A stretch of DNA of 64,000 nucleotides from Panicum virgatum (taxonomy: Eukaryota; Streptophyta; Magnoliopsida; Poales; Poaceae), in assembly GCF_016808335.1 (NCBI RefSeq), contig NC_053143.1, positions 2,451,398 to 2,515,397 of the forward strand, given 5' to 3'. The first letter of the stretch is position 1. Each line of letters opens with the position of its first letter. The position numbers and the translations under genes were made by a program. Below the pieces are notes generated by a model. That model saw only the letters and a program-made list of their open reading frames with translations. It did not search any database and was not told the origin of the DNA. Of this stretch, positions 6,649-39,283 are shown one piece after another.

Positions 6649-6983
6649 GGAGCGGAGCGCGGCGTCCGCGGCGTCGAAGCGGCGGGCGCGGGCGAGGAGG
6701 CGGAGCAGCGCGGAGTGGGCGAGCGGGGTCGGCGCCTCATGGCGGTGGGCCCGGGACCAGGAGAGGAGCGCGAGGGCGAGGTCGGGGTCGGCGAGGGAGG
6801 AGACGGCGGTGGCGAGGCGCGCGTCGGAGAGCGGGCGCGGGAGGAGCGCGGCGAGGGAGCGGGACCAGGTGGGGTCGGTGGCGCGGGCGGCGAGGCCGCG
6901 AGGGCCGGGGTGATGGGCGGGTTCGGGTTGCTGGCGGTGCGGCGGCGGCTTGGGAGCGGGACGATGCGGGGCAGCTTGGACAT
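6649..6983 (-). CDS. Probable N-terminal segment of the PPR gene, frame disturbed
   Basis: Two minus-strand frames together look like one PPR N-terminus. From 6983 a frame reads MSKLPRIVPLPSRRRTASNP and turns to low-complexity Pro/Ala after about 6900. From about 6890 down, the main PPR frame reads PPR-like sequence into 6648. Moving between them needs one missing base in a GC-rich stretch. Either the allele is damaged or the assembly lost a base. Confidence 0.6.
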
Positions 6984-7285
6984 GAAACGATGCGGGGGGA
7001 AGCGCGGCGGCGGGGGGCGATGAAGGGTGGAGGCAAAGCGCGGCGAGGCGGCACGAGTTGTTGACGCCCCAGACGCCTGACCGGCGGAAAGATTTCTACT
7101 TCATCGTGGCCGTCCCATGGCGAGGCTGCGAGCCCTCCCCACATAATCCCACTGTTCACGGGTGGCATACTTGATGCAAGCCCATCTAAAAGATTTGTAA
7201 AGCAGAGATCGTCACCAAACTTGGCCCGTTGCTAACTCAAAAAAAAAAGCGCTTCACATTTGCTGATTAAAATTTAGAAGGGAAA
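6984..7285. other. Upstream region of the PPR gene
   Basis: A GC-rich 5' flank (to about 7060) passes into ordinary AT-richer sequence. No TATA box could be assigned with confidence and no other gene is visible. Confidence 0.35.
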
Positions 7286-14454: not shown

Positions 14455-14891
14455 TGTTAGATCAATTGGATCGACTAGGGTGTAAATCAAATGGGAGAAC
14501 TCACTTTCTGTTGGCGAAAACATTGCTCGTAGCCCGTACCGCATCCATGGCGCCGTACAGCGGCGTCGTCGGTACGCAGGGGTGGTGGTGGCGTGGTGCA
14601 GTGGCCGTTGCAGGGTCGCCGGAGACGTGAGGTCGACGAGGGCGTGGCGCAGGGGCGGCGGGCTTCCCGTCACTTCAGTGCCTCGCGTAGACCGGGTCGC
14701 GACTAGGGTTTTCGGTGGGGTAACAGAATGGCGGCGAACCTTGTGTCCCGAGCCACCAACCCCACCTCTCTCTTTTATATGGCACTGCGCGATGGGGGCC
14801 CACCAGCCGTGTTGGGCTGGGCGTCCCCGATCAGGACGCGAGTCAAGGGCCCAGTTGGCTGTTGGGCCAACTGGTGGAGATCAATCCAACA
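14455..14891 (-). repeat. LARD 1 3' LTR
   Basis: The 437-bp LTR starts tgttag and ends caaca on the plus strand and is bordered by the polypurine tract at 14892. A minus-strand TATA box (complement of cttttatatgg, near 14773-14783) lies inside. Confidence 0.92.
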
Positions 14892-16760
14892 TTCTCCCCC
14901 TTGATCTCACCTTATTCTTTCAACTTTATATCTTTTATTTCTTTTCATATTTCATCACAGATTAATGCATAGAGCAGCTTCATCGTCACGGTCAGTTGCC
15001 GATAGATTCAGCAGCTACAATACACGTCTCTGTTCTGAAACAGATCCTTTAACTTTGGGCCCTTTATTGTCCGGAAAACATAGGCTATACTATAAACCCA
15101 TGTCGACTATGTGTTTTCTCTGTACACACTGGGCGGTAAGCCTTTAATAAGCGGATCCGCAAACACTTTGGCTATCATTTAAAACCACAATGCATTTCAA
15201 TCATGATTCCGGACTTTCTCCTTTACAACGTATAACTTTGTGTCAACGTGTTTGGCACCACAGTTGACTCGTTGTCATAGGAGCAAACTACTTTAATGGT
15301 TATCGCTGCTGTCAACCATTATCAACTCCGAGTACAGGTTCCCTTAAGCATTTTGCCTGCCCCTCAGCCTTGTATCATGCTATACTATATCTTTGCATCA
15401 CATTGATCATAATTGCTTTATTTTGGAGCTTTTCCACACAAAACCTCCAAATGTGAAAGTTAGCGACAATTGTGGATTTTGCTACACATTTCACAAGTTC
15501 TACTTTTGTACTCACAACCTTTTTGAGAGTACTTGATCTTTCCAACTTAGCATGAGGCCGATATTCTCAATTTCATTCCAGTGATCTATATCTGGATTGA
15601 ACTTTTGCCAAAATAACCCGGATACACAAAATATGTCAGGGTAAGTTCTTTTCTTGCGCGCTTATAATACTTTCAGCAGCTGAAGCATTTGGAACTATTT
15701 CCATTTCACATTGGTTCCTGGAACACTAAGGTTCCCAAAACTATTACCCTTAACGATAGGAACAGGCGTAGGTTTATTCATATGCATACTTTATTCTCTT
15801 TTTTTTGAATCTTTTTCAAGTATGCCTTTGTTGTAACCAAAATACCCCTTCCTTTTATCTCGATGAGTTTCAATTCGTAGAATGAAAATCCATCACCAAG
15901 ATCAAAATTTGAGGACAAGAGTTCTTTATCTATAACAACATATTAACCCCACCATTAGAAAATAGGATATTTTCTTTATTTAAAATGTGGAAATTAGATT
16001 CCCCATTCTTTAACTTTTCTTAAAAGCTATTGTCCTCCTTAATCTTTTGGAAACCCAAAATTTCATACTGTTTCATTTAAACTTTAGATACCACCGTCTC
16101 GTGGCTTTCTTCAATCCATAAATGAATTTACTATTGTGGTATCCCGTATGTTCTTTCTTCTCTTTAACTAAAACTTTTGTCACAAATTTTGCTTTATATC
16201 TTTCAACATTCCCTCTAGAGTCACATTGCATTTTATAGGTCCATTATAACCTACTGTGATGGCTCTTTTAGGAATCACTTCTTTTTCCATGACCTTAACC
16301 CATGGAATTCTCGTAACTCTTCAAACGGGGTGGAATCAACATCCATTTGATTTTCTTTACTTTGTATAGGGCTGTTGTTGCTCCTTTTTGCCAAATGGCA
16401 ATGGACTATGAGATCCTGCATAACAAGATTCTTCTTTACTTTATTCATTTTCTTTGAGAGCTAACAACATGTGTTGTATACAATATCAGCACGTATTAGA
16501 AATTTGATGTTCTCGAATCATCGAAGTGGACATGCATTCCCACTTCTCTTCAAGTCTTAGATCTCTACATACCATGCTCCCCCAGATTTTGCCATCTTTT
16601 GTAAAGATGGCGTATCAATAAATCTCTTTGTTTGGGTTCTATCTGTTAAAAACTTTATATCTATTAAAAACTTTATATGTGCTCTGTAAGCACCATCTTA
16701 CTATCTTGGAGGGTCGTCCAGCATGAATGCCGGAATTTAGCCATTTCTTTACATAGGGGT

Positions 16761-16774
16761 ATCACTATAGTGAT
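16761..16774. repeat. Perfect 14-bp palindrome in LARD 1
   Basis: ATCACTATAGTGAT is its own reverse complement. A second perfect palindrome, AGAGAATATATTCTCT, lies at 17629-17644. Both are in the AT-rich interior. Confidence 0.85.
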
Positions 16775-17442
16775 CGTTGTACTCCCCCTGACGGTCACAT
16801 TCATTCTTTAATAGATCATCTCTTGCTTTCAATGCACATTACAGGGGAGTACCTTTCTTAACTGTCTCATATTTCTCCCCCTCGAAATGTGGCTTGAACT
16901 TTTCTGCCACAATTTTGAAAACTATTCACAACTTTGTGAATGAGAAAACTTTTATTACTTTATCCACATGATTATGTCATGCAGAATAAAGTATTTTCTT
17001 AATTCGTATGGGAGTACCTTTTATTGACTTTATTTTGATAACTCAATAGAGTCCTTTATTCGATATGACAGTACTTTTTCCTCATTTCACTTCACGAACT
17101 CAACAGAGTCTATTACCAGTACTTTAGCAAGTCACGCTCGCAAATCTTTCTTACCTTGAGGTTCATATGTAACTTTCCATTCTTCATTAAACTCAATGAG
17201 TGCTTAATCTCTGTGACACAATAGAAGTGCCCGATCAATTCTAAAATAGCAAAGCTACTCCAAACTTTTCTCCCAGTGTGGGATAAACCAGTACATGAGT
17301 CATCACAACTTTCTCCCGCCATGCAGGATTAGCACTATGCCAACTTTATCCCGTCATGCGGGTTATTTCATACTTTTCCAAACAAAAATGTCAGGATAGG
17401 TTCATATCAAATTCAGAAATAAATCTGAATATTCCATGACAC

Positions 17443-18663
17443 ACATGTTTAATCCGACGTTGGTCAAATTAAACATGTATTGACTTATCACAACTTTGAC
17501 TGAACTCAAAATGAATTCTTCTTGATAGAGAGTACATAAGAGACATTTCTCAAAATGAACTCTTAATGCTTTATCTACTCTTCTTAGATAAATATCCTGA
17601 GTACTTTTCCTCTCAAGCCGTTCTTTACAGAGAATATATTCTCTTATATAATGACCTTCTTTCTTTCTGAGTCACAAGTACCCAGTTCATTGTCTTTCGT
17701 CCTACAAGGACAACATAGAACTCTTTGTCTGAAAAGTCAATAATCAATACTTTAAGTTCTATTCTATATCACTCTTGGGTAGAAATAGAATAATCTTTTA
17801 CATTAATTCTGTATCACCGTTGGGCAGAAACGGAATTAATGTATGGAAAACTAAATAAACTTTAAAACCATATATCTGCTCCTCAAAATTAAATTATCCC
17901 GTTGGTTCGAATTTAATTAGAGGATAAACAACTTTATTGCAGTGCAAACTAGGAAAATACATTTTTATAGTTCGGGAGCAGTGCTTTATCTATTCTCTGA
18001 AAAAAGGTACTTTGATGCAATATTTACCAGAGACTTTAAACTTCAAGGTATGATTTATGAAAAATTATAATAATGTTATCATCAACGTTGGTCAGAAAAT
18101 AACAATACCATAATTAACTTTAAATTTTTCTTCCTTGAGAAATATCTTTGTGATTCCAGTAATGCCCAACTTTGAGACTTCAAATGGCAGAATAATGCCA
18201 AAACTCAACTTTTACTTTAAACAGCGGAAGCTTTTGTTTTTTACCCACAGACAAATCATTTAAGACTTTTCGACTATTCTTCCAATTAATCTTCTCGTTG
18301 GTTCCAACTTAATTGAAAGATAGCAATAGTATAACAGCGGAAATCTTTTCCTATCTTTTATGGCAGCAGAAAACTTTTCTTTCTTTTCTGAAACTATACT
18401 TGGTACTTATTTTCTCTCTAAACAATTTATCCCGTTGGTTCAAAATTGAATAGAGATAAAACTGTACAAAACTTACTCAACGTAAGCTCTTTAATCATGC
18501 TCTTAAAAATAATTCTCTCGTCACTTTGAATTAAATTTAAGAGCAACAACTTTAAAACTTTACAGCAGACACATATAAAATTCAATTTTTCAGAAGCATT
18601 AGCACTGTAAGCTTTACTATTTTCTAAAACAAATTATCCCGTTGGTTGAAATTTGAATAGAAA
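17443..18663 (-). other. Array of nine stem-loops with a conserved loop (LARD 1)
   Basis: Hairpins span 17443-17478, 17760-17792, 17799-17843, 17882-17923, 18063-18115, 18274-18323, 18415-18456, 18499-18544 and 18620-18663. Stems are 8-14 bp and unrelated in sequence; 17443-17453 with 17468-17478 is an 11-bp perfect stem. In the transcribed (minus) sense the loops read TTCTGCCCAACGGTGAT, TTCTGACCAACGTTGAT, TTCTACCCAAGAGTGAT, TGAACCAACGGGAT and close variants, sharing a CCAACG-like core. The loop matches that of LARD 2, whose LTRs are unrelated. The role is unknown; recognition of the RNA by a retrotransposon Gag is a reasonable guess. Confidence 0.8.
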
Positions 18664-18744
18664 GTCAAACCATACAAAATTCTATAAAGAAATGCTTCTG
18701 AAAAGGATAAAACTAGGTTCCTTTCTTTACTGTGTTTGTGGCCC

Positions 18745-19485
18745 GACTGAAGAAATAGCCCATGGCCCCAAACTCAGCACTCGGCCCAGCTTTGCGCTTG
18801 CCCTGGGCCAGCAGCCCAAACGGCCCGACGTGCAGCGCCAGCTCCTTGGCTCGGTCGGCCCGGTGGCTTGGCGGCCCAGCAGCCGGTGCACAGCCCACTT
18901 AGGCACCCGCCTGGGCCGGCAACGGCCCGATTAGGGCCGATCGCTCTTGGCCGTCGGATCAAATCCGATGGCCGAGCGCCCTTCTCACGGATCAAAACCG
19001 CCCAACGGCGGTGCTCCCCCAAACCCTAGCCTCATTTCTGTCTTCCTCCTCTCGAGCTCTCTCTCTCTCGGTCAGTGCAAGCGGCGGCGCCGCCGGCGGC
19101 TCTCGCCGGCGGCTCTCGCCGGCATCGAGAGCTCCGGCTGCCGGCTTCCTTTCTTCTTTCTTTTGCCCTCCTTCCCCTTTCTATCTCCCGAGACGGAGGG
19201 ACGGCCGACCATGGTGACCAGGGAGGGAGGTGATGGCACCGCAGCCGGTCCCCTTGCCGGTGCTCGTGCGCCCTCGGCTGAGCACGCCGCCGTCAAGCGG
19301 ACTGGGCGACGGTGCCCTGAGCCCCGAGCTCAAGGCGGGGGCGGAGTTCTTTCGAGCGCGGCGGCTCCTTTCCAACCCGCGCGGTGGCGGTAGTATGCTG
19401 GCCGCCTTGGGTTGGCAACAAGCGCAGCAAGGGCCGGCGGTGGTGATAGCGGGTGAGTTCCGCCGCCCTTTTCATTTGGTAGTGT
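18745..19485 (+). promoter_or_regulatory. Antisense promoter-like module in LARD 1
   Basis: Reading on the plus strand, against the element, there is a cluster of GGCCCA/GCCCA/TGGGCC site II motifs (18748-18930), then a hairpin GGCCGTCGGAT...ATCCGATGGCC (18949-18972). An AAACCCTA telo-box (about 19021) and a CT-rich leader (19050-19075) follow, then an ATG (19211) and a possible splice donor gcgggtgagt (about 19449-19458). This is the layout of plant ribosomal and translation-gene promoters with a first exon. No coherent protein is encoded. Confidence 0.6.
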
Positions 19486-19609
19486 TAGGTTTTCCTTTCT
19501 GTCTTCGATTTGCATCAAATTGTTTCGATCTGTTCTGATTCTTTTGATTCGAGGACGAATCCTTCTTTCCAACACTCGATCCACACACTAGATCGGCTCT
19601 TGATACCAT

Positions 19610-20046
19610 TGTTAGATCAATTGGATCGACTAGGGTGTAAATCAAAAGGGAGAACTCACTTTCTGTTGGGGAAAACATTGCTTGTAGCCCATGCCGCATC
19701 CATGGCGCCGTACAGCGGCGTCGTGGGTACGCAGGGGTGGTGGCGGCACGGTGCAGTGGCCGTTGCAGGGTCGCCGGAGATGTGAGGTCGACGACGGTGT
19801 GGCGCAGGGGCGGCGGGCTTCCCGTCACTTCAGTGCCTCGCGTAGATCGGGTCGCGACTAGGGTTTTCGTTGGGGTAACAGAACGGCGGCGAACCTCGTG
19901 TCCCGAGCCACCAACCCCACCTCTATCTTTTATATGGCACTGCGCGATGGGAGCCCACCGGCCATGTTGGGCTGGGCGTCCCCGATCAGGACGCGAGTCA
20001 AGGGCCCAGTTGGCCGTTGGGCCAACTGGTGGAGATCAATCCAACA
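19610..20046 (-). repeat. LARD 1 5' LTR
   Basis: The 437-bp LTR is bordered on its inner side by the primer-binding site (complement of 19594-19608) and on its outer side by TSD TGGTG. A minus-strand TATA box lies near 19927-19937. Confidence 0.92.
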
Positions 20047-22977: not shown

Positions 22978-24114
22978 TTATGCAAAATATTTTTTTAAGA
23001 ACCTGCCGTTGATTGGAGGACATGGCCAAGCTCCTTGATGATCCACCAGTTGGTAGGCGCCTCCATCATATGCTTGCTCGATGATGTACGGCCCCTCCCA
23101 CTTGGGCTCGAATTTTCCTTTCGTCTTGTGCGTGACGACGATGGGGCACCGAAGCACGAGCACCAGCTCGCCCCTCCTGAAGGCACGTTGCTTGACAAGC
23201 TTGTCGTAGGCTCGGGCCATGTTCTGCCGATATAGCTCCAAGTCTTGTACAGTGTGAAGACGCTCCTCTTCTAGGGAATCAAGCTCCTGAAAACAAAGCC
23301 GAATCTGTTCGTCTTGAGTAAGACCATTACGTAGAGCCACACGTAGTGACGGTAGCTGGATCTCTAGGGGCAAAACTGCTTCACACCCATAAACAAGAGA
23401 GTACAGAGTGGCTTGCGTTGGGGTACGGACCGTGATGCGGTACGCCCAGAGAGCTTCAAAGAGGCGGCCATGCCAATCTCTTCGGTGTCTGTGCACCGTC
23501 TTCTTTAGGATCTTGCCGAGCGTCTTGTTGAACGCCTCGATCATCCCATTAGCTTGAGGGTAGTAGCCGGTGGAATAGTTCCACTTGATCTTGTATTTCG
23601 CCATGAACCTGTGCATTTTACCTGACCTGAAGGCCTTGGCGTTGTCAGAGGTGATGCGGTGTGGGACTCCGAAGCGATATATGATGTGTCGCTCCAGGAA
23701 GTTGATGGCGTTGTCGCTCTTCACCTCACGCAGTGCTACAACTTCCACCCACTTGGAGAAGTAGTCCGTTGCAGCGAGGATGAAACGGTGGCCCGACGAT
23801 GAAGGAGGATCGATGGGGCCGATGACGTCAATGCCCCAGGCGTCGAACGGCCACGAGGGGACTGTTGGATGAAGAGCGATCGGCGGTTGGTGCTTGAAAT
23901 TGCCATGAACTTGACAACTATGGCAGGTTCTAGCCACCCTTAAGCAGTCTGCCATGATGCTGGGCCAATAGTATCTGGCTAACCGGATACTGTGATACAT
24001 CTTTGGTCCACTTTGATGTCCTCCGCAGACTCTGTGATGCATCTCCTTCAGGACTTGGTCAACTTCACTTCGATTGATGCACCGAAGTAGGACCTCCTGT
24101 CCATAGGATTGCAT
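22978..24114 (-). pseudogene. Tat gypsy integrase
   Basis: A His/Cys zinc-binding region (HHRVCGGHQ ... RTCHSCQVHG) is followed by the catalytic core with Asp in GIDVIGPI, Asp in RITSDNAKAF and Glu in NGMIEAFNKTLGK, giving the D-D-E triad. A GPY/F-like WEGPYIIEQA module near the C-terminus agrees with Ty3/gypsy. It ends at a stop at 22978. It is separated from the RNase H part only by an in-frame TGA (24151-24153), so it belongs to the same polyprotein frame. The domain itself looks undamaged. Confidence 0.88.
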
Positions 24115-24153
24115 GTAGAGAACGCCGGCCTTGTAGACATAGGAGGGGAGTCA

Positions 24154-25182
24154 TCGTTGCAGTTGGCGCCTCTTCACCGGATCGTCGGGGAGGCTACCGT
24201 GCTTGAAGTAGTCGAGGAAGGGTGTGAGCCAGTCGGCTTCTTCAACGGCGTTGGTTGTGATGGTGTTGACTTCATATTCCTCTGGAATGAGCTCCAGGAT
24301 GGTAGGGAGAAGCCATCTCTCCTCGACGGTGACTTGTGCAACATCTCCTTCAGGAAGAACAAGTGCAGCAGCAAGCTTCGCCAAGGCATCGGCCGGTGCA
24401 TTCCTGCTTCGTGGAATGTGAACAACTTCAACATGTTTGAATTTCTCCATGAGCTTCCGGGCTGCTTGGTAGTATGGCACCAGCTCCGGCTTCTGGACTT
24501 CATAGATTTCATTGACTTGCCGAACAATGAGCTGCGAGTCTCCATGAACTCGCAAAGAACGTACCTCCATGGAGAGGGCGAGGAGAAGCCCGAAGATGAA
24601 TGCCTTGTACTCTGCCTCGTTGTTGGAGCACTCTTCTTTTAGAAGGGAGAATGAGTGATACATTACTCCCCCTTGTGGGGTCTTGAACACCAATCCGGCC
24701 CCCACTCTTCGCTTGGGGGCGCCATCTGGGTCAGCATCCATGCGAGAAGCGCCGTCGAAGTAGAGCTCCCATGGGGCTTCAAGCTCGGTGGAGAAGACCT
24801 CTTCATCGGGCAAGTTGGTGACGAGTGGCGAGTCATCTGGCACTGGATGTGCCGCTAGGAACTCCGCCAAAGCCTGCCCCTTCACCGCTTTCTGTGGGAC
24901 GAAGGTGATGTCGAACTCCATCATGAGGAGCACCCATTTTCCCAGTCGCCCTGTGAGTACAGGCTGACTTAGCACATACCTTATGGGGTCCGCTCTTGCA
25001 ATGAGCTGGACTTGGTGTGCCAACATGTAATGCCTTAGCTTCTTCAAGGCGAAGATCAGTGCCAAGCACAACTTCTCTATGAGAGAGTAATTATGCTCGG
25101 CACCCACCCTGGTGCGGCTTAGGTAGTAGCACGCCACCTCCTTGCCCTCGTCATTGTGTTGTGCGAGCAAAGCACCTAACAA
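24154..25182 (-). pseudogene. Tat gypsy RNase H region (two RNase H domains)
   Basis: The N-terminal part (YYLSRTRVGAEHNYSLIEK, KKLRHYML, PQKAVKGQALAEFLA) is the end of the usual gypsy RNase H and connection. A second archaeal-type RNase H follows, with YFDGAS, NNEAEY, GDSQLIV and NAPADALAKLA supplying its acidic residues. Having both domains is characteristic of the Tat lineage and supports that placement. The segment is bounded by in-frame stops at 24151 and, upstream, 25294. Confidence 0.85.
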
Positions 25183-26967
25183 GGATTGCTGCGCCGCGAT
25201 GTAGAGGATGAGAGGGCGCCCTTTTACAGGAGCAGCCAGAACAGGGGGATTAAGGAGGTACCTTTTAATACCATCAAACCCCCGTTGACATTCTTAATCC
25301 CAGACGAATGGTGCGCCTTTCTTCATGAGCTTGGAGAAGGGTTGAATGCGTCCGGAGAGGTTGGAGATGAAGCGCCGAATGTAGGCTAGCTTCCCCGGCA
25401 GTGACTTCAATTCCTTCAATCCTTGTGGTGGGGGCATCTTTCTTATCGCCGTGATCTTCTTTGGCTCGATCTTGATGCCTCAATGCCGAACCACAAACCC
25501 GAGGAAGACGCCTGACTGGACAGCGAAGGCGCACTTGAGAGGGTTCATCTTGAGTTGATGTCGACATAGTCGTTCAAAGACAACCCATAGGTCGTCTTGG
25601 TGGTCTTTGCGATCCTTGGTCTTTACGACCATGTCGTTGACGTAGCACTCCACCGATTGGTAGATCAGGTCGTCAAGGATGTACGTCATGGCACGCTGAT
25701 AGGTGGTGCCGGCATTCTCCAACCCGAACGGCATGACGGTGTAGTAGAAGTTGCCCCTGGGCATCCTGAAGGCGGTGTCGAGGGCGTCGACCGGGTCCAT
25801 CTTGATCTGGTTGTAGCCTAAGGATCTGTCCATGAAGGACAAGGTGTTGAATCCCGTCGTAGCATCAACCACCATCTCAGTGATGGGCAAGGGAAAGTCA
25901 TCTTTTGGACAGGCCCGGTTTAAGTCGCAAAAGTCAACGCAGACTCGAACCTGTCCATTTTTCTTCTCCACCAGGATGATGTTGGTGAGCCAGCAGGGGT
26001 ACTGTATCTCCTTGATGAAGCCTACCTTGATGAGCTTGTCCACCTCGGCGATGACTTGATCTTCAAACTCCGGTCGAAGACGTCGCGCCGGTTGCTTGAC
26101 GGGATGAAATTGCGGGTCAATCGCCAGCTTGTGCGTGGTGACGCAAGGATCAAGCCCCGACATCTCCTTGTAGTTCCAGGCGAAGCAATCTCGGTACTCC
26201 ATCAAGAAGTTCCGGTAGTCCTCCCTTTCTTCCTCCGATAGCATGGCGCTGACGAAGATGGGCCTCCTATCATCCTCTGTCCCGAGGTTGATCTCCACGA
26301 GCTCGTCGACTGTGGGCTGGCCTCCATCTTCAAGTTGTTGAGGAGCTGATAAAGCATCCAGCTCCTCATCCATCTCGATGGCTCCCGCCTCTATAGGTTG
26401 CTGTTGGCGCTTGACGTAGTGCGAGCAGCCAGCATCACCTCCCGAAGAAGCTGTTATGGTGAGACAATGAACCTGGTTCACGTAGAAGTGCTCATCTTCA
26501 TCGTCGGAAGTGTCCGTGTTGCAGTAGCCGAGCCCGAACCTTGGCTGAACCTTCCGCCTCCTCCTGACGAAGTTCTCTGCTTGTCCCCACCATTCCTCGC
26601 ACACAGGTGGTGGCGGCGGCATCCTGTTGTTTTGCCGAAGAGTGATCCCGGCCTTCTCCAGTAGGCGAGCCATCCGTGGCTCAGCCTTCATGGTCATCAA
26701 TACCTCCTCTGCATCAGGGTTAGGATCAGGCAATTCAATAATAGAATCACACTCCTGTACCTGTGGCACTTTGTAGAAAATGGTTTGAGGTGCAGCACTG
26801 GAAGGACTTGGGATCGCCCAGACTTCTAAGGGAGTTGCTACTGATACGTACAACGATGGGGGCTGCACGCATTGAGCACCCTTCACGACGTCTTCTATCT
26901 CAGCTACCCTCTTCTTCACAGCTCCTCCAGATGCTGGTATGGCTTCCTCATTAGGACTCCAGTGCGC
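25183..26967 (-). pseudogene. Tat gypsy reverse transcriptase
   Basis: RT blocks are clear: RRLRPEFEDQVIAEVDKL, CWLTNIILVEKKNGQVRVC, VDFCDLNRACPKDDFPLP, MPFGLENAGTTYQRAM and VFLGFVVRH. The catalytic box reads YVNDMVVKT where active relatives have YVDD, so one of the two metal-binding Asp residues is Asn. In-frame stops lie at 25480-25482 (TGA) and 25294-25296 (TAA). With the substituted catalytic residue, this copy should be inactive even if the stops were bypassed. Confidence 0.88.
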
Positions 26968-29175: not shown

Positions 29176-30586
29176 TCATGCAGCGTTCGCCTCCACTTGC
29201 GCCTTCCCTTTGCCCCCATTGTTGCTTGGCTTCGCCATTGAGGAGAAGCGCTTGGCTGGATCGAAGGCGCTGGCGTTCTTGTAGAGCTCCAAGATCTGCG
29301 GGGACTTGTCGAACTCAATCTTGACGGCAGCCACAGCGGAGGTCATGTCGCTGAACATCCTTGGACCTCTCCGGGACACTTCGAGTGACTAATGCTGTAG
29401 CATCCCGTGAATGCACATCTCGATCGCATCTTCGAGGTGCATCTCCCTTGCAAGACGCACGTAGCTGTTGTGGAAGCGAATGACATAATCATCCACAGCT
29501 TCATCACATCGTTGCTTCACTTGCGACAACTCAACGATGGACAAGTCCTTCTTCATGGCCACGAAGTGTCTTCTGAAGACGTCCTTCATGGCTCCCCAGC
29601 TGCTGATGGATCCAACCGGCAAACGGTTGTACCAGTGGAAAGCCGCACCAGTTAGGGACCCGGAGAACTGGTGTAGTAGCTGTGATGAGTTGTTTGCGGT
29701 GTCACCACATGCCGCTTCGAAGTACGCAAGGTGCTCCCTTGCATCACCAGTTCCGTCGAACTGACGGAACTTAGGCGGGTGCCACCCTGCTGGGAAGGGT
29801 ACAAGGTCATGCCATGACTTGTTTGGCTTCTCGAGCTCATTCTCCATCGACCGAGGGGCCTGGTCGTTCATCGCCCTCCTCAGCTACCTGTTCACCATAT
29901 CTTCGACCATGTCGTGGTAGTCCTTCAGCGTCGCCGGTAGCGGTGCCCCGTGGGCGGAGGGCGAAGCGAAGTTCGTTGGTCGAGGGCGAATGCTTGTTGT
30001 GCCGTTCTGCTCCTCGAACTGTGGGTCTTCACCAGGTCGATATACGCCACCGTGTGGGGCATTCTGGGCTGAAGACGTAACCAGTTCAACCAGTCGGTCG
30101 AACTTCGCGGATAGCTCGTTCATCACCCGCCTTTGTTCTTGGACTTGCTCCTCCAAGGTGAGGACCTGGGCTCCTCCTGGAAGCTCCGAGCCATTGTGGT
30201 GGTCATCTACTGCCATGTGAGCTAGCGCAGAGTTGACGTTATCAGGATGCTCATCACCATCAGAAGGGATGGATGCGGCGAGGTCGGAGTAGCGAGGTGA
30301 GTGATTGTGCTTCTCCAGTGAGGAAGATGAGTCGGTGTCGCTTGCCGTCATGCTGTCCCGCGGGTTTTCGTCTTCCTCCTCATGTACAACCCCCTTCATC
30401 TTCTGGGCCGCAAGGGACCGGAGTCGTGTGCTCGCTCCGGCGCGGTCCGCAATGTACAGTAGATCCTCAAAATTCCGAGGAAGTCGAGACGCGATGTCGA
30501 CGTAGCGCCTCGGAGACGTGTCCGAAGCTAGCACCCTGTCGCCGTCGGATAGCGAACCCTTCCCGCGGAGATGGGAAGGCAAGGTG
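29176..30586 (-). pseudogene. Tat gypsy gag, downstream of LARD 2
   Basis: The retrotransposon gag domain is readable at 29389-29871 ([64 protein letters not shown]). The preceding segment 29884-30582 includes a heptad-like region (LEEQVQEQRRVMNELSAKFDRL). In-frame stops lie at 29884 (TAG), 29389 (TAG) and 29176 (TGA), with no frameshift. LARD 2 inserted just upstream (TSD at 30587-30591). Confidence 0.82.
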
Positions 30587-30591
30587 CTGAA

Positions 30592-30982
30592 TGTTAGACT
30601 GTGATCTGTAAAGCTTAAATAGTAAGCTTAACAGTGAATATACAGTAAAGCAATTAATGAAGAACTAAAGAAGATAAGAGAACGGGAACGAACATTCCCG
30701 TTCCCGTCCTGATCGGGGGCGGAAACCGACCCAGGGATGTCGGTCCCCCCCGGTGAGCCACGACTATAAAAAGAGAAGGGATAAAACCCCGTAAGGCATC
30801 CGATCCGCTCGTTGTGGCCATCACCGGGGTTTTAGTGACCGGCTCAAACACACACACATACACAGAGGCAAGAAGAACAGAGCAAGAAGAAGAAAGACAG
30901 AAGCTCAAGAGCAAAGGTACTAAACCTAATTGAGCTCCCTTTTGTGGTTCCATTTGAGCTAGAGATCCTAGAACATCTAACA
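30592..30982 (+). repeat. LARD 2 5' LTR
   Basis: The LTR runs TGTTAGAC...ATCTAACA with a TATA box (tataaaa, 30765-30771). Its U3 contains a strong inverted repeat of the form GAACGGGAA...TTCCCGTTC. Confidence 0.94.
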
Positions 30983-31261
30983 ATGGCATCAAGAGCTAGG
31001 GTTAGCATCAATTGGAGCCCAATTAGTGCTCTGTGCACTCTAATTGCACGCGTTTTAGCCTCTGTTCAGTCAAAATAATGGCCGAAATGCTGTCATTTTG
31101 AGCTAGGGGTTTGAATTAAGCATGAGGATGGAAGGGAATCAAAGCAATTACGCACTAATCCTAAGAAATTCCCCAAATCCCCAAATCAGGAACCCTAGCT
31201 ATAGTAAAATCCCCAATTTTTTCCCAAACCCAAAGAACCCTAACCCTAAGATTTAAAGCAG

Positions 31262-32040
31262 AGGGTCAGGGGCTTACCTTAAGGGCCGGCATGGCCACCA
31301 TCGTCGCCATGGCCGCCGCCATGGCCGTCGCTAACGGCGAGCGCACACCGGGACTTGGTCTCGAGCGGCCTCGCGGGCCCTCCGCACCGGCGGCGCCGAC
31401 CCCTCGCGCGCGCCATGAACCCGAGGTGGTCGGCCGCTCACCGGATCTGGATCTGCTGCAGACCGCCGTCAGCGCCGCTGTAGATCTTGGCGTGGCCGGC
31501 CGGTGCTTTAGGGCACCGTCGAGCAACGCTCGACGGAGCTGCGTGCCCGCATCCGCGGCACGCAGATCCGGCGAGCGGAGCTCGGCGGTGCCGCTCCCTC
31601 TCGTCGCGCTAGCGCTGCGCGCCGCTCTGCCGGCGCCATCGCTCGACGCTCGCCCGCCGTCGCCGGGTGGAGAAGAGAGAGAGAGGGAGGGAAGAAATGA
31701 AGTTAGGGTTTGGGGCGGGCGCGGCCGAACGGCCTTTTTATGCGGGGTAAAAGCGACGACGGCCGTCGGATGGAATCCGACGGCTCGCGCGTCTCGTGGC
31801 CGCAGCGGGCCGGCGGGAGGCCGGCGGGCGCGACACTTTCCCGGCCAAGGCCCAGGTTTTTGGGCCTGGAGCCCGGGAGAAGAGGCGGTTCGGCTAAATG
31901 GGCCGGGCCGAAAGATGATGGGCCGAAAAATGAATAATGGGCCAAATTTATTTGTTATTTTTTTGGAAAATTAAAATTGGGCTGCATAGTGATGGGCTGC
32001 ATAATGATGGGCCAAATAATAATGGGCTGAATTCAATAAA
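31262..32040 (-). promoter_or_regulatory. Antisense promoter-like module in LARD 2
   Basis: On the minus strand, against the element, about eight TGGGCC/TGGGCT or GGCCCA site II motifs occur (31845-32035), then a hairpin with arms GCCGTCGGAT and ATCCGACGGC (31760-31784). An AAACCCTAA telo-box (31703-31711 complement), a CT-rich leader (31670-31700) and a GC-rich exon-like stretch follow, ending in a donor AAG|GTAAGC (31273-31280). The order matches the LARD 1 module although the GC-rich exon bodies differ. No coherent protein is encoded. Confidence 0.6.
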
Positions 32041-32972
32041 AGGCTGAAAATAAAGTAAAATTTTTGGAATATTTTTTCCTCTAATTTTAACATTTAAGCT
32101 TTGTGATTATGAACATTAGTTCATGATTAAATTTTAAAGACCTTTTATTCTACTTTAGCAAATAATAATAAGGATTATGATTAGACTTGTTAAGTGATGA
32201 AATTTTCTTATGTTTAAATTTAGTGATGATTACTTTATGACCAAAAATAAGTAAAATCATGGATATTTGACTTTTTACTTAAATAATATTTTTTGGGCCA
32301 AACCTTATGGGAATTTTCTCCATTTATGATTAAGTATTCTTTCTTATGATTATGATTAAACGTCCTCATTATGTCTTAATGCTTCACTTTATTTCTAAGT
32401 CATTTTATTATGATTATGTTTTGCTTTACTGCAATTTATGTTATCACTAAAAAAAATTATGAAATACTCTCCAATTAAATTGGGGATTATTTTTTAGTGA
32501 AGTTTTAGATTCAGTTTTAAAATCTATTTGAGACATTTATTTGTAAGATTTATGTCTCAATTATGATGATAAATTACTTTCATTATGAAATTAAGTTATC
32601 TGCCACATACTTATGTGCCACTTGAATTGAGGCTTAATTATAAAGCATCTTATGACCCATAAATATTATCAATTATGTGAGCATATTTTACTCACAAGAA
32701 TTGATATGCCCGTAAGTTAAGCATGATGCTTAAGACCCATTTTGGGGAAAATCAAATAATGACATCTTTAATGGCCAATTACCTAAGAAAATTAAATAAT
32801 GGGCCATATTTATTTGATGTCATTAATACTTTTGTTTACATTTGAAAAAATGTGCATCCTAAAGATAAGATCATTAAGGAATCATTTATTATAAAGATTG
32901 GATGCACAAAATTAATGACTGAGTGGCTCTATTTTATAATTTTATCCCAGATTCAAGATCAAAATTAAATGG

Positions 32973-33888
32973 TGATTCATGGTTGTATTCTGACCAAAGT
33001 TGTTTACAATCATGGATTATCATGATCAAATTTATTAATAAAGTACATTATTCTTAAGCCATGCATACTTAATGATTCCAATTTTGGACATAAATCTTAA
33101 TAGCTGGCTTTTGAATATTTTCTTAGTTGAGCCACAAATAACGTTGATAATAATGTTAGGGAAATACTAAGTTTTCTCTGATAAGTGATAATTTGCTCAA
33201 AAAAGAGTATTGGCATAACGTAACCGATTATATGACTTGTGACTACACATGTCATTCTTATCCTGAAGATTATGATTAATTTTATGACTCATGACTATAT
33301 TCTGACCAAAGTTGTTTATGGTCATGTGTCGCTAAGGTTGGTTGAGTAACTAAGTTGCCAGCTCTTGAGCAATATTGGGCATAATTATAAACTAAGTTTT
33401 ATCAGATTAAGCTAATGCTGAATGATATGAATAATAAGAAATTGTGTCAAATCATATGGGTCATTTTTCAATAAAGTTTCCGCTGCAAAAGAAATAACAC
33501 TCTGATTAAGTGTGGCATACGTTCATCATTCTGGCCAAAGCTGATTGATGAACGTGTGACTGCAAAATTTTGTTATTTCGGTTCATCTTCTGGCCAAAGC
33601 TGATTTTGAACTGGAATAATTATTTAAAACTAAGTGTGGCTTGTGTTTATCATTCTGGCCAAAGCTGATTGATAAATACTTGTTCACAATACTTTTGTTG
33701 GTCTTAATCCACTTCTGGACAAAGCTGATTTGGGTTATGATTCAACAAAAGAAGTTTTATGCACATGATATTAAATGTGGCTTGTACTTATTCTTCTGGC
33801 CAAAGCTGATGAATAAGTACTAGTTCACAAAATTCTATTGTTCTTTTCCATTTCTGGCCAAAGCTGATTTGGACTGGTTCAATAGAAG
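32973..33888 (+). other. Array of eight stem-loops with a conserved 17-nt loop (LARD 2)
   Basis: Hairpins are 32973-33019, 33286-33330, 33516-33558, 33572-33620, 33643-33679, 33692-33751, 33784-33820 and 33833-33888. Loops are TTCTGACCAAAGTTGTT (first two), TTCTGGCCAAAGCTGAT (five) and TTCTGGACAAAGCTGAT (sixth). Stems are 10-15 bp (the eighth has a 4-bp inner stem plus an 8-bp outer stem) and differ in sequence, yet remain paired through double substitutions and G-U intermediates. The last six form three tandem units of two hairpins, each unit beginning AARTGTGGC (33508, 33632 and 33773). No known RNA family was recognised. Confidence 0.9.
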
Positions 33889-34655
33889 AAGTTTGTGTTG
33901 ATGCTTGCTAAAGTATTCTATAAAGCATCACATGCCTCTAAAGATCAAAACTAATAAGTGGCACTAAGCAATTAAATGATAGTAACTATGTCTTATGGAA
34001 GGTACATCCATTTATGGATGCAAAATCAAACTTATGAATTATCCCTATTGATGATATGTATTAATTAAGTCATAAGTTCCTAAGATTATTTGAGATACCA
34101 CTATCAAATGTGAAGTGGTTTTATCTGCATCTCATTAGTTCTTAAGATCATAACTAAGATGGCACATACAAATGTCATAAGAGGTGCAGTTCCCATTAGA
34201 AAAATTCAATATTAAGGATATTAATGAAAAATTAATGATTTTATTGATCATCAATATCTAATGGGAAAATATTAAGATAAGTCACTTATGGACAAATACC
34301 AGAATAAAGGGGTGCAATCCCTCAATTCTAAATAAATGTAACAATTAGGGGGAGCAATCCTCAAGATAAGTCATAAAGCATATTTGGCATTAATGGTGAG
34401 TTATTATCCTTATTGTGTATCAATAAGGATAAGATAATGTCATATGTCTCTGGGCATAATTTAGATCAAAGAAAATGAGACTAAGGTAATAAGATGAGTC
34501 TCTAAGTAATAAATTTTTTAAAGAATTGTATTTATAAAAAGAAGGATAACGTCATTAGATTCTCTTAGTATGAAATTATATTTATTTCCAATGTATACAT
34601 TCATGTTATTTTTATATGTTGTAACAAGGATAAACAAACAAATAAATAAAGGTTC

Positions 34656-34778
34656 TTCGAAATATGGTACTATTGCATAGACCATATTTCGAGGGGGGGA
34701 GTGGAACCTTCATTAAGAAAATATTTTCCACTATTTCGAGGGGGAGAGTGGAACCTTCATTAAGAAAATATTTTCCAC
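34656..34778 (+). repeat. Hairpin plus 47-bp direct duplication with internal hairpins
   Basis: An 11-bp perfect stem (34658-34668 with 34681-34691, 12-nt loop) is followed by two copies at a 47-bp offset of a unit starting TTTCGAGGGGG (34687 and 34734). Each copy contains GTGGAA...TTCCAC arms (34701-34731 and 34748-34778). The purine-rich part resembles the element's polypurine tract. Confidence 0.8.
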
Positions 34779-35748
34779 CTCTTTATGTCAGGTAAGAATT
34801 AAATATTGAAGATAAGTTTATCATGTGTCAGTTTCTTATGTGTCATTTAATTGACAATATTATTCTTATTATGAGCTATATGCTAGCCTTAGAACTGAAT
34901 ACTATTTCAGTATCATTTCTCACCACTAATGTCGCTAAGTTGAGAATTAGATGGGAGCTCTAAAGCAAGGAAAAGTAATATTAAAGAAAATAAGCTAAGC
35001 TCATTTATGAATACTTGTTTTAGCTCCTTGTGGTGCTTTTGTGCCCACATGAAGATCTTTGATCAATCCCACTTAAAGTGAAAAGGAATATATATAAGGA
35101 AAAGGGATTGATTATGTTATATAAGATATAAAGAATTAATGATATGTGTTGCTCATCATTTGAAAAACTATTGAAGTCCATAAGTGATACATAAGTACAA
35201 TGAGAAATAAGTTATTTAATTAAGTTTTAAACAATAGGGATATTGTGTACATAAAATCTAGATTTTTTTTTATCTGGATACTAAGATTGTCTTGGTGATA
35301 TTTCTTAAGTTTTGAACAATAATGTTCACCAAGATAAAGGTCCAGGAAATGGGTTGATTCCCATTAAGAGCAATAATTTGCTTATGTTATGGCAGACGTA
35401 AGCATTATGTGTTTGATTAAGTTTTGAGTTGCCCTAAATATTCTTAAAAGGACCGGGATATCTGGGAAATAAGTCCAGGACTGGACCCCTGGAAAAATCA
35501 ATTAAGAACACTTTGCCTTATTGGCATAAATGCAAAGGTGTTATGTTGCATGCCCATAAGTAAGGAGTCCAATATTTTGGACAATTATATTACAAGAAGT
35601 GTTGATACTAAGAAAAATTCCACATAAAGTATTATCAACACTCTTGTGGGAGAAGTCATATGTGGAAGGCTTTAACCAATACTTTTCATAAAGACATCAT
35701 TAAAGATGCAAGTTAAATTGTGGCATGTTTTGAATTATACACCGTCAA

Positions 35749-35775
35749 ATATGGATTTGTGTCCCTAATCCATAT
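35749..35775 (+). repeat. Perfect 9-bp stem-loop in LARD 2
   Basis: Arms ATATGGATT and AATCCATAT are separated by 9 nt. It is another of the many isolated stems in the AT-rich interior. Confidence 0.75.
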
Positions 35776-36607
35776 CATTTTTTTTTCAGAAGATAAGAAA
35801 TTGCTTTAAGCAATTTATCCCGGAAATTATTAAATGAAAGAGTGCAATTTTGGATCGAGTAACATGTCAAGAGGTATTCCCAGACCTAAGACATTGTGAA
35901 AGATTGAATCCAGAATCAAATATGAATATTCAAGGCCTACATAAACTCTGTTTAAGACTAAGTGGTGCTTGACAAATTAAGTATGTCATAAGTGTTGAGC
36001 ATCAAATAAGTTCTAAAATTATGGTGCTCAATATGAAAGCATTAAGTGATGTGACATAAGTTTTAAAGATTGAGCATCATGTTCATAGGCTTGCCTAATA
36101 CATTGCCGGCATAAAAGATAAATGGCAGCCTATTAACTAAGGGACAAGATATGATTATGGAAATACATTGGTTTTCTTCCTCCTTTAAAAGTGCATGCAC
36201 ATAAGAATAAATATATGAGGATAAACATATATGTTTAATGCATATAAAGGAAAACCAACTGCACTCAGGGACTATTATAACCATATATCTCCCCATAAGC
36301 CTAAGAGGAATCACTTTGATTTTGAATGGGAACCATGGTCACTTAGTCCTGTGGTACTTAATTGACTGCAGTGATTGATTGATCTGGTGTACCATCTTTT
36401 GAGAAGTGAGTCCGTAAGTTTTACATAAGCATAAGGAATAAGTTTTGGAGCTCCTAAGTTAAAGAAGTTCATTTGATATGAGGTGGCACACTATAGCAAC
36501 TGGGTTCAATGGTATGTATGATTCACCATTGTAATCTCTTTGTCTTGGTGCGTCATTTTGTTGAAAAATGGACTTATAAGTTTAAGTCTTACGATCAAGG
36601 GGGAGAA

Positions 36608-36999
36608 TGTTAGACTGTGAACTGTAAAGCTTAAACAGTAAGCTTAACAGTGAATATACAGTAAAGCAATTAATGAAGAACTAAAGAAGATAAGAGAACG
36701 GGAACGAACGTTCCCGTTCCCGTCCTGATCGGGGGCGGAAACCGACCCAGGGATGTCGGTCCCCCCCGGTGAGCCACGACTATAAAAAGAGAAGGGATAA
36801 AACCCCGTAAGGCATCCGATCCGCTCGTTGTGGCCATCACCGGGGTTTTAGTGACCGGCTCAAACACACACACATACACAGAGGCAAGAAGAACAGAGCA
36901 AGAAGAAGAAAGACGGAAGCTCAAGAGCAAAGGTACTAAACCTAATTGAGCTCCCTTTTTGTGGTTCCATTTGAGCTAGAGATCCTAGAACATCTAACA
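36608..36999 (+). repeat. LARD 2 3' LTR
   Basis: This 392-bp LTR is preceded directly by the polypurine tract and nearly identical to the 5' LTR. Confidence 0.94.
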
Positions 37000-37004
37000 C
37001 TGAA

Positions 37005-39283
37005 GTCCTCACCTCATCAGGGCCTGTAGACGTACCGGAGTCCCTTGCTTCTTCCCCGCCTCTGAACCACGAGCGAACGTGGCCTAGTCGAGGTAGGAAC
37101 GCCTTCTTGAAGTTTGCCTTCGGGTTCGGTGTGATCTCTTCGTCAGAAGGGTAACTGAACTCGTGAGTCACCATGGGAGAGACCCACTCCATCTTCGAAT
37201 CATCTCCGGAGTGTGCTGCCAGTGCGGTGCACATGGCGACATTCTCTCGGGCATCTTCTGGCATCTTCTCCGTCTTGTGTGAAGGAGCGTGATCACCCTA
37301 TTCTATTCCATGGAGGGCGGAAGCTTGTGTTGCTGCTGCGTCTTGCGTGAGAGCGACGCCGTCTTGAGCTTGGGGAAGCGCCGCCTGGTTCAGTGCTGGT
37401 GATGACCCCTCGACTCCTTCCATGGGCGTGGGTGATGGAGACCGGTCTAGTAGACTCCCTGTGGAGTCCACGCTTGGCGTAGCTTGGCCTTGCATTCCAC
37501 CGTGGCCGAGGATGATCGGCGCGTGTTCCTCGGTTGCGGCGGCCTCCCTTGCATTGGCGCCACCACCCTGTGCCCGTCGTGGCTTCGGTGTCAACCGAGT
37601 GAGGAGGTAATTATACATCTCGTCGCCCTCCAAGTCAGGCGAGATGCGGAAGGAGATACGGTTGTTCTCTTGGTGAAGCTCTCGATCAGGTTGGATGCGA
37701 ACTTGAGTGTGCCTCAGCACCAACTCTTCGAGCTCGCGGTACAACGCGTAGCGGTTCCTCCGGTGCCTCTCGCGCTTGCGCTGGTTCTCCATGGGAGCAG
37801 CTTGAACGCGAGGTGGAGCTTGACGTGCCGGCGCAGCCTGTCGTGCAGCCGTACTAGGAGCACCTTTTCTTGTCGCCTTTGTGCTGGAACTCCATTCCTC
37901 GGGGAAGATGGGGCTCGAGCAGGCTCCCTCCCATACGAGGAGTCGCGAACTCGCCATTGCTGAGTCGGGTGGGGACGCGCAGTGTAGTCTTGTCGCCTTG
38001 ACCAACTATTCCAACGAGGAGGCAAGGTGGCTTGCCTACGTTGGAAAGTGTGGGGTGGTGGAGATCGACGTCGTGGTGCCAGCATCTGACGCTCATGTTG
38101 CGGGCGACGACTAGGAACGGGTCGCTCCGCCCTGCCCCTGGCTCGTGCTGACGACGTCTCAGGTGCTTCTTTGCTGTTGAAGCCTTCTCCCGAGTTGAGC
38201 CACTTGGTCTTGAAGTCGGCGCAGCTCCTGCCTCATGCCTTCATCTTGAGGTGCTGATTCATTAGTCTGCAAAACTGCAAACTTGTTGGTGTTAGCTATA
38301 GACGGCTCTTCGTTCGCCGTTGCGTGGTAGCAGGACACCCATCCGGTCGGCCGGATTGGTGTGCTATTGACGAAGGAGGCAGTAGGTCCCAGGAGCCGAG
38401 TTTGCTTGCTTGAGCGCCGCCTCTTCCAGTACTCCCGCATGATCATGCGGCGCACCAGACTCTTGATCTTGCCCGGCCCGTGCGCCCACTCGTCGGGGAA
38501 CACGTCGTACGGCGGCTCCAACGTGCTGGGTAGGTGAACACCTTGTCGAGAAGGACTCCCGTGTCGAGGGACCAGTCCTCATCCAGGACTGTGCTCTGGG
38601 CGATGCGGGAGCTGATCTGTTGGTGTAGCCGCTGCACCTTGCGGTCCTTTCTTCTGTAGTTGCGAAGCGGATGAGGACTTGCGGCGTGGCGGGCGAAGGA
38701 CATCTTCCGTCGCAGATCGCCAGACGTGGCTTCAAGAGCTTCCAGGAGCTCGACCTCTGTGCGCTCCACAGCTGGAGCAGGCGCTTCTTGAACGGGTGTT
38801 GGTGTAGGTGTACAGAGAGTCGTAGTCGCCGCCCTCCTGTTGACCGCCTTGGCGCGCAGTTGTTGCGCAGCCCGCACGTCTCCCTTCATGTCGGCCACCA
38901 CGGATTCTTCAAGAGACCCCGCGCCTCTAACATCAAGTTGCGCCGCTCCTTCCTGGCCTTGGCCGAAGCTCTCTTCTGAGCTTTTCCATGCTGGACCGAC
39001 TGGAATTGCGCCGGGTCCTGTGTCACGAGCATGTAGGTCTTGTCGCGGTACTCAGAAGACAGCCACGGGAGGAAACGGTCCGAACTGGATCAGGGTCGGC
39101 TCCTGGGTGTTGATGGCGACTTGGGCAGCCCCAGCTTGGTCGACGATCGTCGCCGGTGTGGGCAGCACTTCGGCCTTGGTGACGACGGCTCTTCCATCTT
39201 CCGCGGGGAGCACGCCTGAGTCTTGACAGTAACGGACGGTCCTCCTGCAGGAAGGGGACTCCTCATCAGGACAGCTCCACGTC
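37005..39283 (-). pseudogene. Tat gypsy 5' gag/leader region, decayed
   Basis: Gag-type N-terminal sequence is spread over several frames: 38443-38901 ([20 protein letters not shown]), 37298-38005 (ENQRKRERHRRNRYALYREL, RISPDLEGDEMYNYLLTRL) and about 37005-37264 (FKKAFLPRLGHVRSWFRGGE). Frames change and stops occur between them. The reading frame at 37005 does not continue into the gag frame at 30586 across LARD 2 without a shift. This part is therefore more damaged than pol. Confidence 0.6.

Follow-up and report, generated by a model that had tools for sequence, protein, structure and literature searches.

A conserved hairpin array upstream of gag in a Copia group of Panicum virgatum, kept by gag-less elements, as a candidate packaging signal

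Array-bearing elements in the window

When the window (the whole 64,000-nt stretch of Panicum virgatum DNA analyzed here) was searched, two elements carrying the same kind of hairpin were observed. The first, LARD2 (30592-36999, + strand), is a gag-less Copia-like LTR retrotransposon with LTRs at 30592-30982 and 36608-36999 that are ~391 bp long and 98 % identical. The target-site duplication CTGAA (30587-30591 and 37000-37004), the primer binding site TGGCATCAAGAGC (30983-30997, +), which we take to be of the initiator-Met type, and the polypurine tract ahead of the 3' LTR (36595-36607, +) were read in the sequence. Together with the LTRs, these are the features by which a LARD is recognized. 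The Gypsy origin and several-kb LTRs of Sukkula-type elements are absent: the LTRs are of the length given above, and gag-bearing kin match Retrotran_gag_2 and RVT_2, which are Copia types. LARD2 had been described as protein-less from its sequence alone, and this was confirmed. Three of its open frames, including one of 269 aa, gave no Pfam match at E 0.1, and tblastn with the gag and pol frames of relatives returned one 15-residue match (E 0.89) and no match to gag.

The second element, LARD1 (14455-20046, - strand), has an LTR pair; its ends and the duplication CACCA were read in the sequence. No gag match was obtained, and a degraded pol relic was detected by tblastn to the pol frame of a relative (E 4.8e-21); the hairpins are kept. 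When LARD1 was compared with L086 (loci in the genome are denoted by L), six short alignments were observed. Three fall on hairpins; the rest are in inter-hairpin sequence, in the GC-rich part and close to the primer site. Internal ATTTCGAGGGGGAG-type tracts in both LARDs (34684-34745; ~16880-16900, -) are possibly central polypurine tracts.

Among the other features of the window, an 847-codon open frame with at least 14 PPR repeats (4552-7095, -) is probably a host gene. Gypsy-type integrase, RNase H and RVT_1 frames lie beside LARD2 (22978-26967, -), and LARD2 may have inserted in this neighboring Gypsy-type element. The other retroelement frames tested in the window had Pfam matches of Gypsy type.

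In the GC-rich part of LARD2, Rfam MIR531 was found above its gathering score (31513-31591, - strand, 72.1 bits). The same family was matched antisense to the element in L033 (1703-1782, 83.5 bits), and it may be derived from a transposon leader. By eye, the GC-rich leader (31270-31700, -) and the same region of L033, L070 and L086 have the look of an antisense gene, with a CT-rich start and long antisense frames; an antisense splice-donor-like CTTACC or similar was seen on the sense strand in several lineages.

The hairpin array

The LARD2 array consists of eight hairpins. Six of them form three two-hairpin units at 33517-33881, which are direct repeats, as the sequence-only reading had proposed. 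The shared 17-mer that it reported, TTCTGGCCAAAGCTGAT, is exact in five of the six and carries a single change in the other, and its five co-varying stem positions were correct when re-read by eye against the sequence. The two extra hairpins lie upstream.

A covariance model, R1, was built from 49 hairpins of other loci and none from the window, with near-identical LARD2 copies among them. On the + strand of LARD2 it recognized the two upstream type-I hairpins, both with A-U at pair 6:13 (32976-33017, 35.9 bits, z = -5.0; 33288-33329, 41.4 bits, z = -4.5), and the first and second hairpins of unit 1 (33517-33558, 46.7 bits; 33576-33617, 43.4 bits), unit 2 (33641-33682, 50.7 bits; 33701-33742, 34.7 bits, the latter with the variant GGACAAAG) and unit 3 (33782-33823, 51.0 bits; 33840-33881, 49.0 bits). 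LARD1 has at least three type-I hairpins within 17755-18109 (-): one with A-U at pair 6:13 and CAAC (18068-18109, 50.6 bits), one with C-G and CAAC (17800-17841, 51.0 bits) and a degenerate one (17755-17796, 25.7 bits, E 0.0026). These eight and three hairpins are the 11 model matches at E < 0.003 in the 64-kb window, all on the sense strand of their element, and no match up to E 1 was found in the window outside LARD1 and LARD2. Weak matches inside the LARDs at 35773-35807 (+, E 0.057) and 17393-17430 (-, E 0.18) are perhaps decayed hairpins.

Further hairpins on the - strand of LARD1 were detected by folding. A hairpin scan and fold gave one with the apex GAC[CAAC]GUC (17441-17480), and local folds gave four with the apex AACCAACGRGA (17880-18670; apices at 18645, 18438, 18301 and 17905), the third of which can also be drawn with a longer loop. 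A GGCC[CAAC]GGCC hairpin with the same apex occurs in the LARD1 LTR (20006-20029 and 14851-14874, -), with one base changed in the other LTR. At ~17260-17375 (-), small look-alike hairpins with shared flanks (CCCG-CAUGA-CGGG, CCUG-CAUGG-CGGG and CCCA-CAC-UGGG) are perhaps another hairpin class.

The 401-nt array stretch of LARD2 folded at -136 kcal/mol on the + strand (z = -9.5), whereas its complement reached z = -3.3; none of 100 shuffles was as good in either case. A coding repeat (FWPKL) was rejected: the hairpin spacings are 59, 65, 60, 81 and 58, and no frame of at least 60 codons runs across the six hairpins.

Structure of the apex

The 17 nt had been read as an open loop. Fold and alignment showed instead that five pairs, a bulged U and a CAAA tetraloop lie within them. 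In 17-nt numbering the apex is formed by U2-A16, C3-G15, bulged U4, G5·U14, N6-N13, C7-G12 and the tetraloop C8 A9 A10 M11; that is, a CAAM tetraloop on a C-G closing pair, followed by N-N', a near-invariant G·U, the bulged U and two more pairs. In the 49 divergent hairpins, pair 6:13 is GC in 22, CG in 16, AU in 8, UG in 2 and unpaired in 1; both sides were changed in 26 rows, one side in none, and the remaining exception is the unpaired row. The tetraloop is CAAA or CAAC in 48 of the 49 rows and CAGA in one. RNAalifold returned 15 of the 17 named pairs from this set, bulge included, the two outermost being missing. A CNGG loop is of the Smaug type; such a loop was suggested by CUGGC and was dropped since the CUGACC and CUGCCC variants have no CNGG.

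An apex test was defined as a CCAAMG site with at least 10 enclosing pairs in the local fold. In the window outside both LARDs, 17 of 53 CCAAMG or CCAAAG-type sites passed. Specificity therefore comes from the model and from the site counts, and passing the apex test is not by itself diagnostic.

Distribution in the genome and position relative to gag

All relatives came from one genome (1.13 Gb, 627 contigs). The 17-mer had 373 exact matches genome-wide and its reversed control pattern none; a LARD1-type pattern with two free positions had 876 matches versus 2 for the control. In all 100 LARD1-type matches listed, the free positions were complementary (71 C-G, 27 A-T, 2 T-G). We examined 30 of the 34 LARD2-type clusters listed, two of which (L038 and L060) belong to a single duplicated region. 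Of the LARD1 type, 21 elements were examined; nine further loci overlapped these elements and were set aside. In L031-L060, all 191 model matches were on the sense strand. Array-bearing copies occur every ~32-40 kb at G000:C2:7395744-7572267, probably by segmental duplication.

The array is not confined to LARD2; the same motif occurs in a Copia group that includes gag-pol-bearing members. With the Gag part of L086 as tblastn query, gag was found directly 3' of the array in 14 of 51 loci (7/21 LARD1-type and 7/30 LARD2-type). In L086, Retrotran_gag_2 and Pol_BBD were matched in a frame that starts with ATG, a zinc knuckle scoring just below the cut-off. The genome-wide search assigned this locus an open frame of 1,424 codons; frames in other loci reach 1,452 codons, and a broken copy, L091, gave an RVT_2 match. 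Gag identity between lineages is ~28-46 % for distant pairs.

When 32 loci were chosen by Gag identity alone, from 150 scored of 2,184 Gag candidates, hairpins were found just upstream of gag in all 32 (480-600 nt taken), with gag identities of 47-83 %. All 113 sense CCAAMG sites in these stretches had at least 10 enclosing pairs; the antisense strand had five sites, four of them so enclosed. The model gave 64 matches, at least one per locus and all on the sense strand; nine of the 32 loci had supplied rows to the model. Five recurring hairpin slots were observed, at about -390, -280, -200, -135 and -80. A structured leader lies between primer binding site and gag, where a retroviral-type packaging signal is expected. 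Twelve control gag loci, taken from the 150 scored in the Pfam gag search and presumably of other Copia lineages, had no model match, and one of the 12 had a single CCAAMG site (11 enclosing pairs, -6.3 kcal/mol).

Viral contigs, searched with gag and with a two-motif pattern, yielded no relatives, and the same pattern found none in prokaryote genomes. Two viral contigs had 18-mer matches, with 23.7 model bits each at the same place (E 0.0019), which we take as 18-mer matches alone. The sequence-only reading knew of no named RNA family with this loop, and Rfam 15 had no match at the array in 30000-38000 of the window, L086, L033 and L062, where miRNA-type matches only were obtained, in the GC-rich part. 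An array of miRNAs was accordingly rejected. Six loop strings (both strands, RNA forms) had no occurrence in the literature searched.

Covariation and selection on RNA

Retaining only hairpins that differ from one another by more than four changes reduced 210 candidate sites to 49. Paired cells made up 83.4 %, versus 61.1 % when shuffled and 32-48 % when slid, and covariation was 0.600 versus 0.192 when shuffled, with none of 500 shuffles as high. In 100 distinct 41-mers, obtained from 139 of 144 sites after five sites with four mismatches were dropped, the structural pairs are the top 8 of 703 column pairs. Flank pairs averaged 9.41 of 12 versus 6.01 when shuffled.

A tree-based null was also applied to the sum over structural pairs. 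The signal was z 10.7 for LARD2-type hairpins (109 distinct), 9.7 for slot H2 (44), 4.2 for H3 (27) and 2.3 for H4 (29), and there was none for H1 (21 distinct, z -0.7) and H5 (31, z -1.6). No single structural pair reached E < 0.05 under this null, and one non-structural pair in H3 did. Among two-sided changes on the tree, pairing was kept in 19 and broken in 3; among one-sided changes it was kept in 63 and broken in 53.

In the outer stems, G·U exceeded A·C by 61 to 15 (49 hairpins), 27 to 1 (H3), 15 to 5 (H4) and 44 to 3 (H5), and therefore the sense RNA is the selected molecule. The earlier proposal of selection on pairing is thus supported across many copies of one genome, and taken together the data show that RNA structure is under selection. 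What is repeated is a hairpin of the sense RNA, in which a stem of freely varying but paired sequence carries a bulged U, a near-invariant G·U and the apex C[CAAM]G. Conservation in young subfamilies is only marginally higher in the motif than in the intervening DNA (0.939 versus 0.923 in the window-like one).

A predicted gag intron

With a loosely set rule, all 32 loci have a pyrimidine-rich [CT]AG in the stretch that separates gag from the last hairpin. The best-scored acceptor of L106 and L121 lies elsewhere, but TTTTCAG or TTTCAG can be seen where the other loci have theirs. Near the LTR end, a short ATG frame running into a GT donor was observed in 10 of the 16 loci looked at; frame and donor were not found in the other six (L035, L037, L045, L075, L087 and L088). 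Read by eye, the frame is open across the predicted junction in four lineages (L033, L039, L070 and L086), and gag exon 2 of L033 and L039 lacks a start codon at that point. These features suggest that the gag of autonomous elements begins with an exon in the LTR and that the intron following it contains the primer site and the array. Were this so, only full-length genomic RNA would keep array and primer site, and the spliced gag-pol mRNA would lack them. A retroviral-type packaging signal would be absent from spliced gag mRNA; donor, acceptor and frame, as read from sequence, would allow this in the four lineages.

LARD2 has a donor-like GCAAAG/GTACTAA, cut after GCAAAG, near the 3' end of its LTR (30911-30923, +; by eye against L033), which is probably homologous in place to the exon-1 donor of its relatives. 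Neither an exon-1 ATG nor an acceptor 3' of the array was seen by eye in LARD2.

Ogre and EVADE are named as notable plant exceptions with introns (PMC12786077), and the available part of a large survey names splicing for Ogre only (PMC6317226). If gag does begin with an exon encoded in the LTR and its intron does span the primer binding site, translated and replicated RNA would be kept apart in an unusual way.

Hairpin number in gag-less copies

Diverged relatives have the array immediately before gag, and elements without gag retain it. By model count, the gag-less elements of the LARD2 family carry more hairpins. All seven gag-bearing LARD2-type copies had exactly 4 model hairpins, whereas the 22 gag-less copies had 159 (mean 7.2, range 4-9; p = 1e-4); the sister locus L038, with no gag found, had 4. 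A plain regex count pointed in the same direction (3.3 versus 4.3) and was not significant (p 0.18). In LARD1-type elements the counts, taken over stretches of limited length, overlap (2-6 in gag-bearing elements, 4-8 in the rest). An acceptor-like TTTTCTTATATCAG follows the array in L034 and L056, two of the 14 gag-less LARD2-type loci displayed, so not every gag-less element has clearly lost the acceptor.

Interpretation and alternatives

We favor the reading, with a probability of roughly 55 %, that the array acts in cis to select the genomes of this Copia group for packaging and that gag-less relatives have kept and enlarged it. The reasons are that the apex is repeated and resembles a protein site, a gag intron is predicted around it, control loci have no model matches, and the array is kept by elements that need only cis signals. 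The acceptor-like sites of L034 and L056 and the weaker alignment pattern of LARD1 weaken this reading slightly. A protein, most likely the Gag of an autonomous relative, would bind the repeated apex, and this binding would sort full-length RNA into particles. The LARDs would carry the array to be packaged by the Gag particles of a helper, and extra hairpins could make them better competitors.

The main rival, which we consider unlikely though a serious contender, is that the array controls nuclear export or splicing through a host or element protein, either holding back a share of the RNA from splicing or bringing intron-containing RNA out of the nucleus, packaging then following without sequence choice. 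Its place inside the predicted intron and near the acceptor would suit such a role, export elements of this sort are named for other retroelements (PMC12786077), and an acceptor-like site is kept in the two gag-less loci just mentioned. Against it, LARD2 has eight hairpins without gag, exon-1 ATG or (by eye) an acceptor after the array, and gag-less copies carry more hairpins, not fewer. Dimerisation, in which the loops of two RNAs kiss and pair two genomes, is improbable. Dimer and packaging signals do lie close together in Ty1 and retroviruses (PMC5454406), and the LARD2 variant contains the palindrome TGGCCA. It is found in the G-C variant only, and part of it belongs to the stem; the C-G, A-U and CAAC variants break the palindrome with the fold kept, and the CAAM tetraloop is not self-complementary, as a palindromic kissing loop would have to be. 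The sequence-only reading had offered packaging, dimerisation or helper recognition together: a packaging or helper-recognition role agrees with an array that precedes gag and that gag-less elements have retained, whereas dimerisation by a palindromic kissing loop is not supported.

A neutral by-product, with one inverted repeat tandemly duplicated and of no present function, seems no less improbable than kissing loops, if not slightly more so. The units are tandem duplicates and copies of one subfamily decay almost evenly, as it would predict, but of the double changes on the tree 19 preserved pairing and 3 broke it, G·U is favored, and the array stands before gag in all 32 Gag-picked loci in spite of gag identities of 47-83 %. 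We give very little weight to a host-facing role, in which the hairpins feed or block small-RNA silencing or serve as double-stranded decoys; the stems are long and nearly perfect and a miRNA-type Rfam family is matched elsewhere in the element, but the array itself has no Rfam match, and conserved apex, bulge and G·U would be left unexplained. Least credible of all is a signal at the DNA level, in which the duplex forms a cruciform or is itself the protein site. Cruciform extrusion is possible at inverted repeats, but the preference for G·U over A·C (61 versus 15) applies to the sense strand alone, and the fold differs between the strands.

Returning to the packaging reading, a fuller version is more tentative, and we hold it at somewhat less than even odds: the Copia group may tag its genomic RNA with a repeated word, C[CAAM]G plus bulged U, in a gag intron that starts in the LTR, and gag-less parasites may have nearly doubled the word count in an arms race for helper particles. 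The recognition of protein-less plant retrotransposons by helper particles becomes directly testable in vitro here, since the RNA motif is defined and repeated, its apex is predicted, candidate helpers reside in the same genome and hairpin number varies naturally between copies as a dose series.

Comparison with known systems

Packaging hairpins as such are already known. The coat protein of MS2-type phages binds an operator in which one base is bulged out a few pairs beneath a tetraloop. The present hairpins are alike in tetraloop and bulge, with CAAM and a bulged U here, and no relationship is implied. Sukkula is Gypsy-like with LTRs of ~4.4 kb, whereas the LARD2/LARD1 group is Copia-related, has LTRs of ~0.4 kb and carries a defined hairpin motif. 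LARDs such as Sukkula are nevertheless a close known system (PMC7215508). In the accessible portions of the literature on plant packaging hairpins and gag introns, no description of such an array was found.

BARE1/BARE2 of barley (PMC3735527) resemble the present group as a Copia helper and a parasite without gag start codon, with separate RNA pools for translation and replication and with splicing. The BARE intron differs in being 104 nt long and within gag, and the available part of that source mentions conserved dimerisation and packaging signals but no such array. The 5' TIPIRT domain of Ty1 (PMC5454406) likewise places packaging and dimerisation cis signals of an LTR retrotransposon at the 5' end of the RNA. 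It is built from a pseudoknot and kissing loops reaching into GAG, whereas the hairpins here are dispersed, repeated and without a palindromic loop. Retroviral psi (PMC5454406) is similar in having several leader stem-loops between primer binding site and gag; its removal from spliced mRNA would have a counterpart in the intron predicted here. In contrast to psi, the array of this plant Copia group consists of many look-alike C[CAAM]G units, with putative Gag binding and a first gag exon that apparently lies in the LTR.
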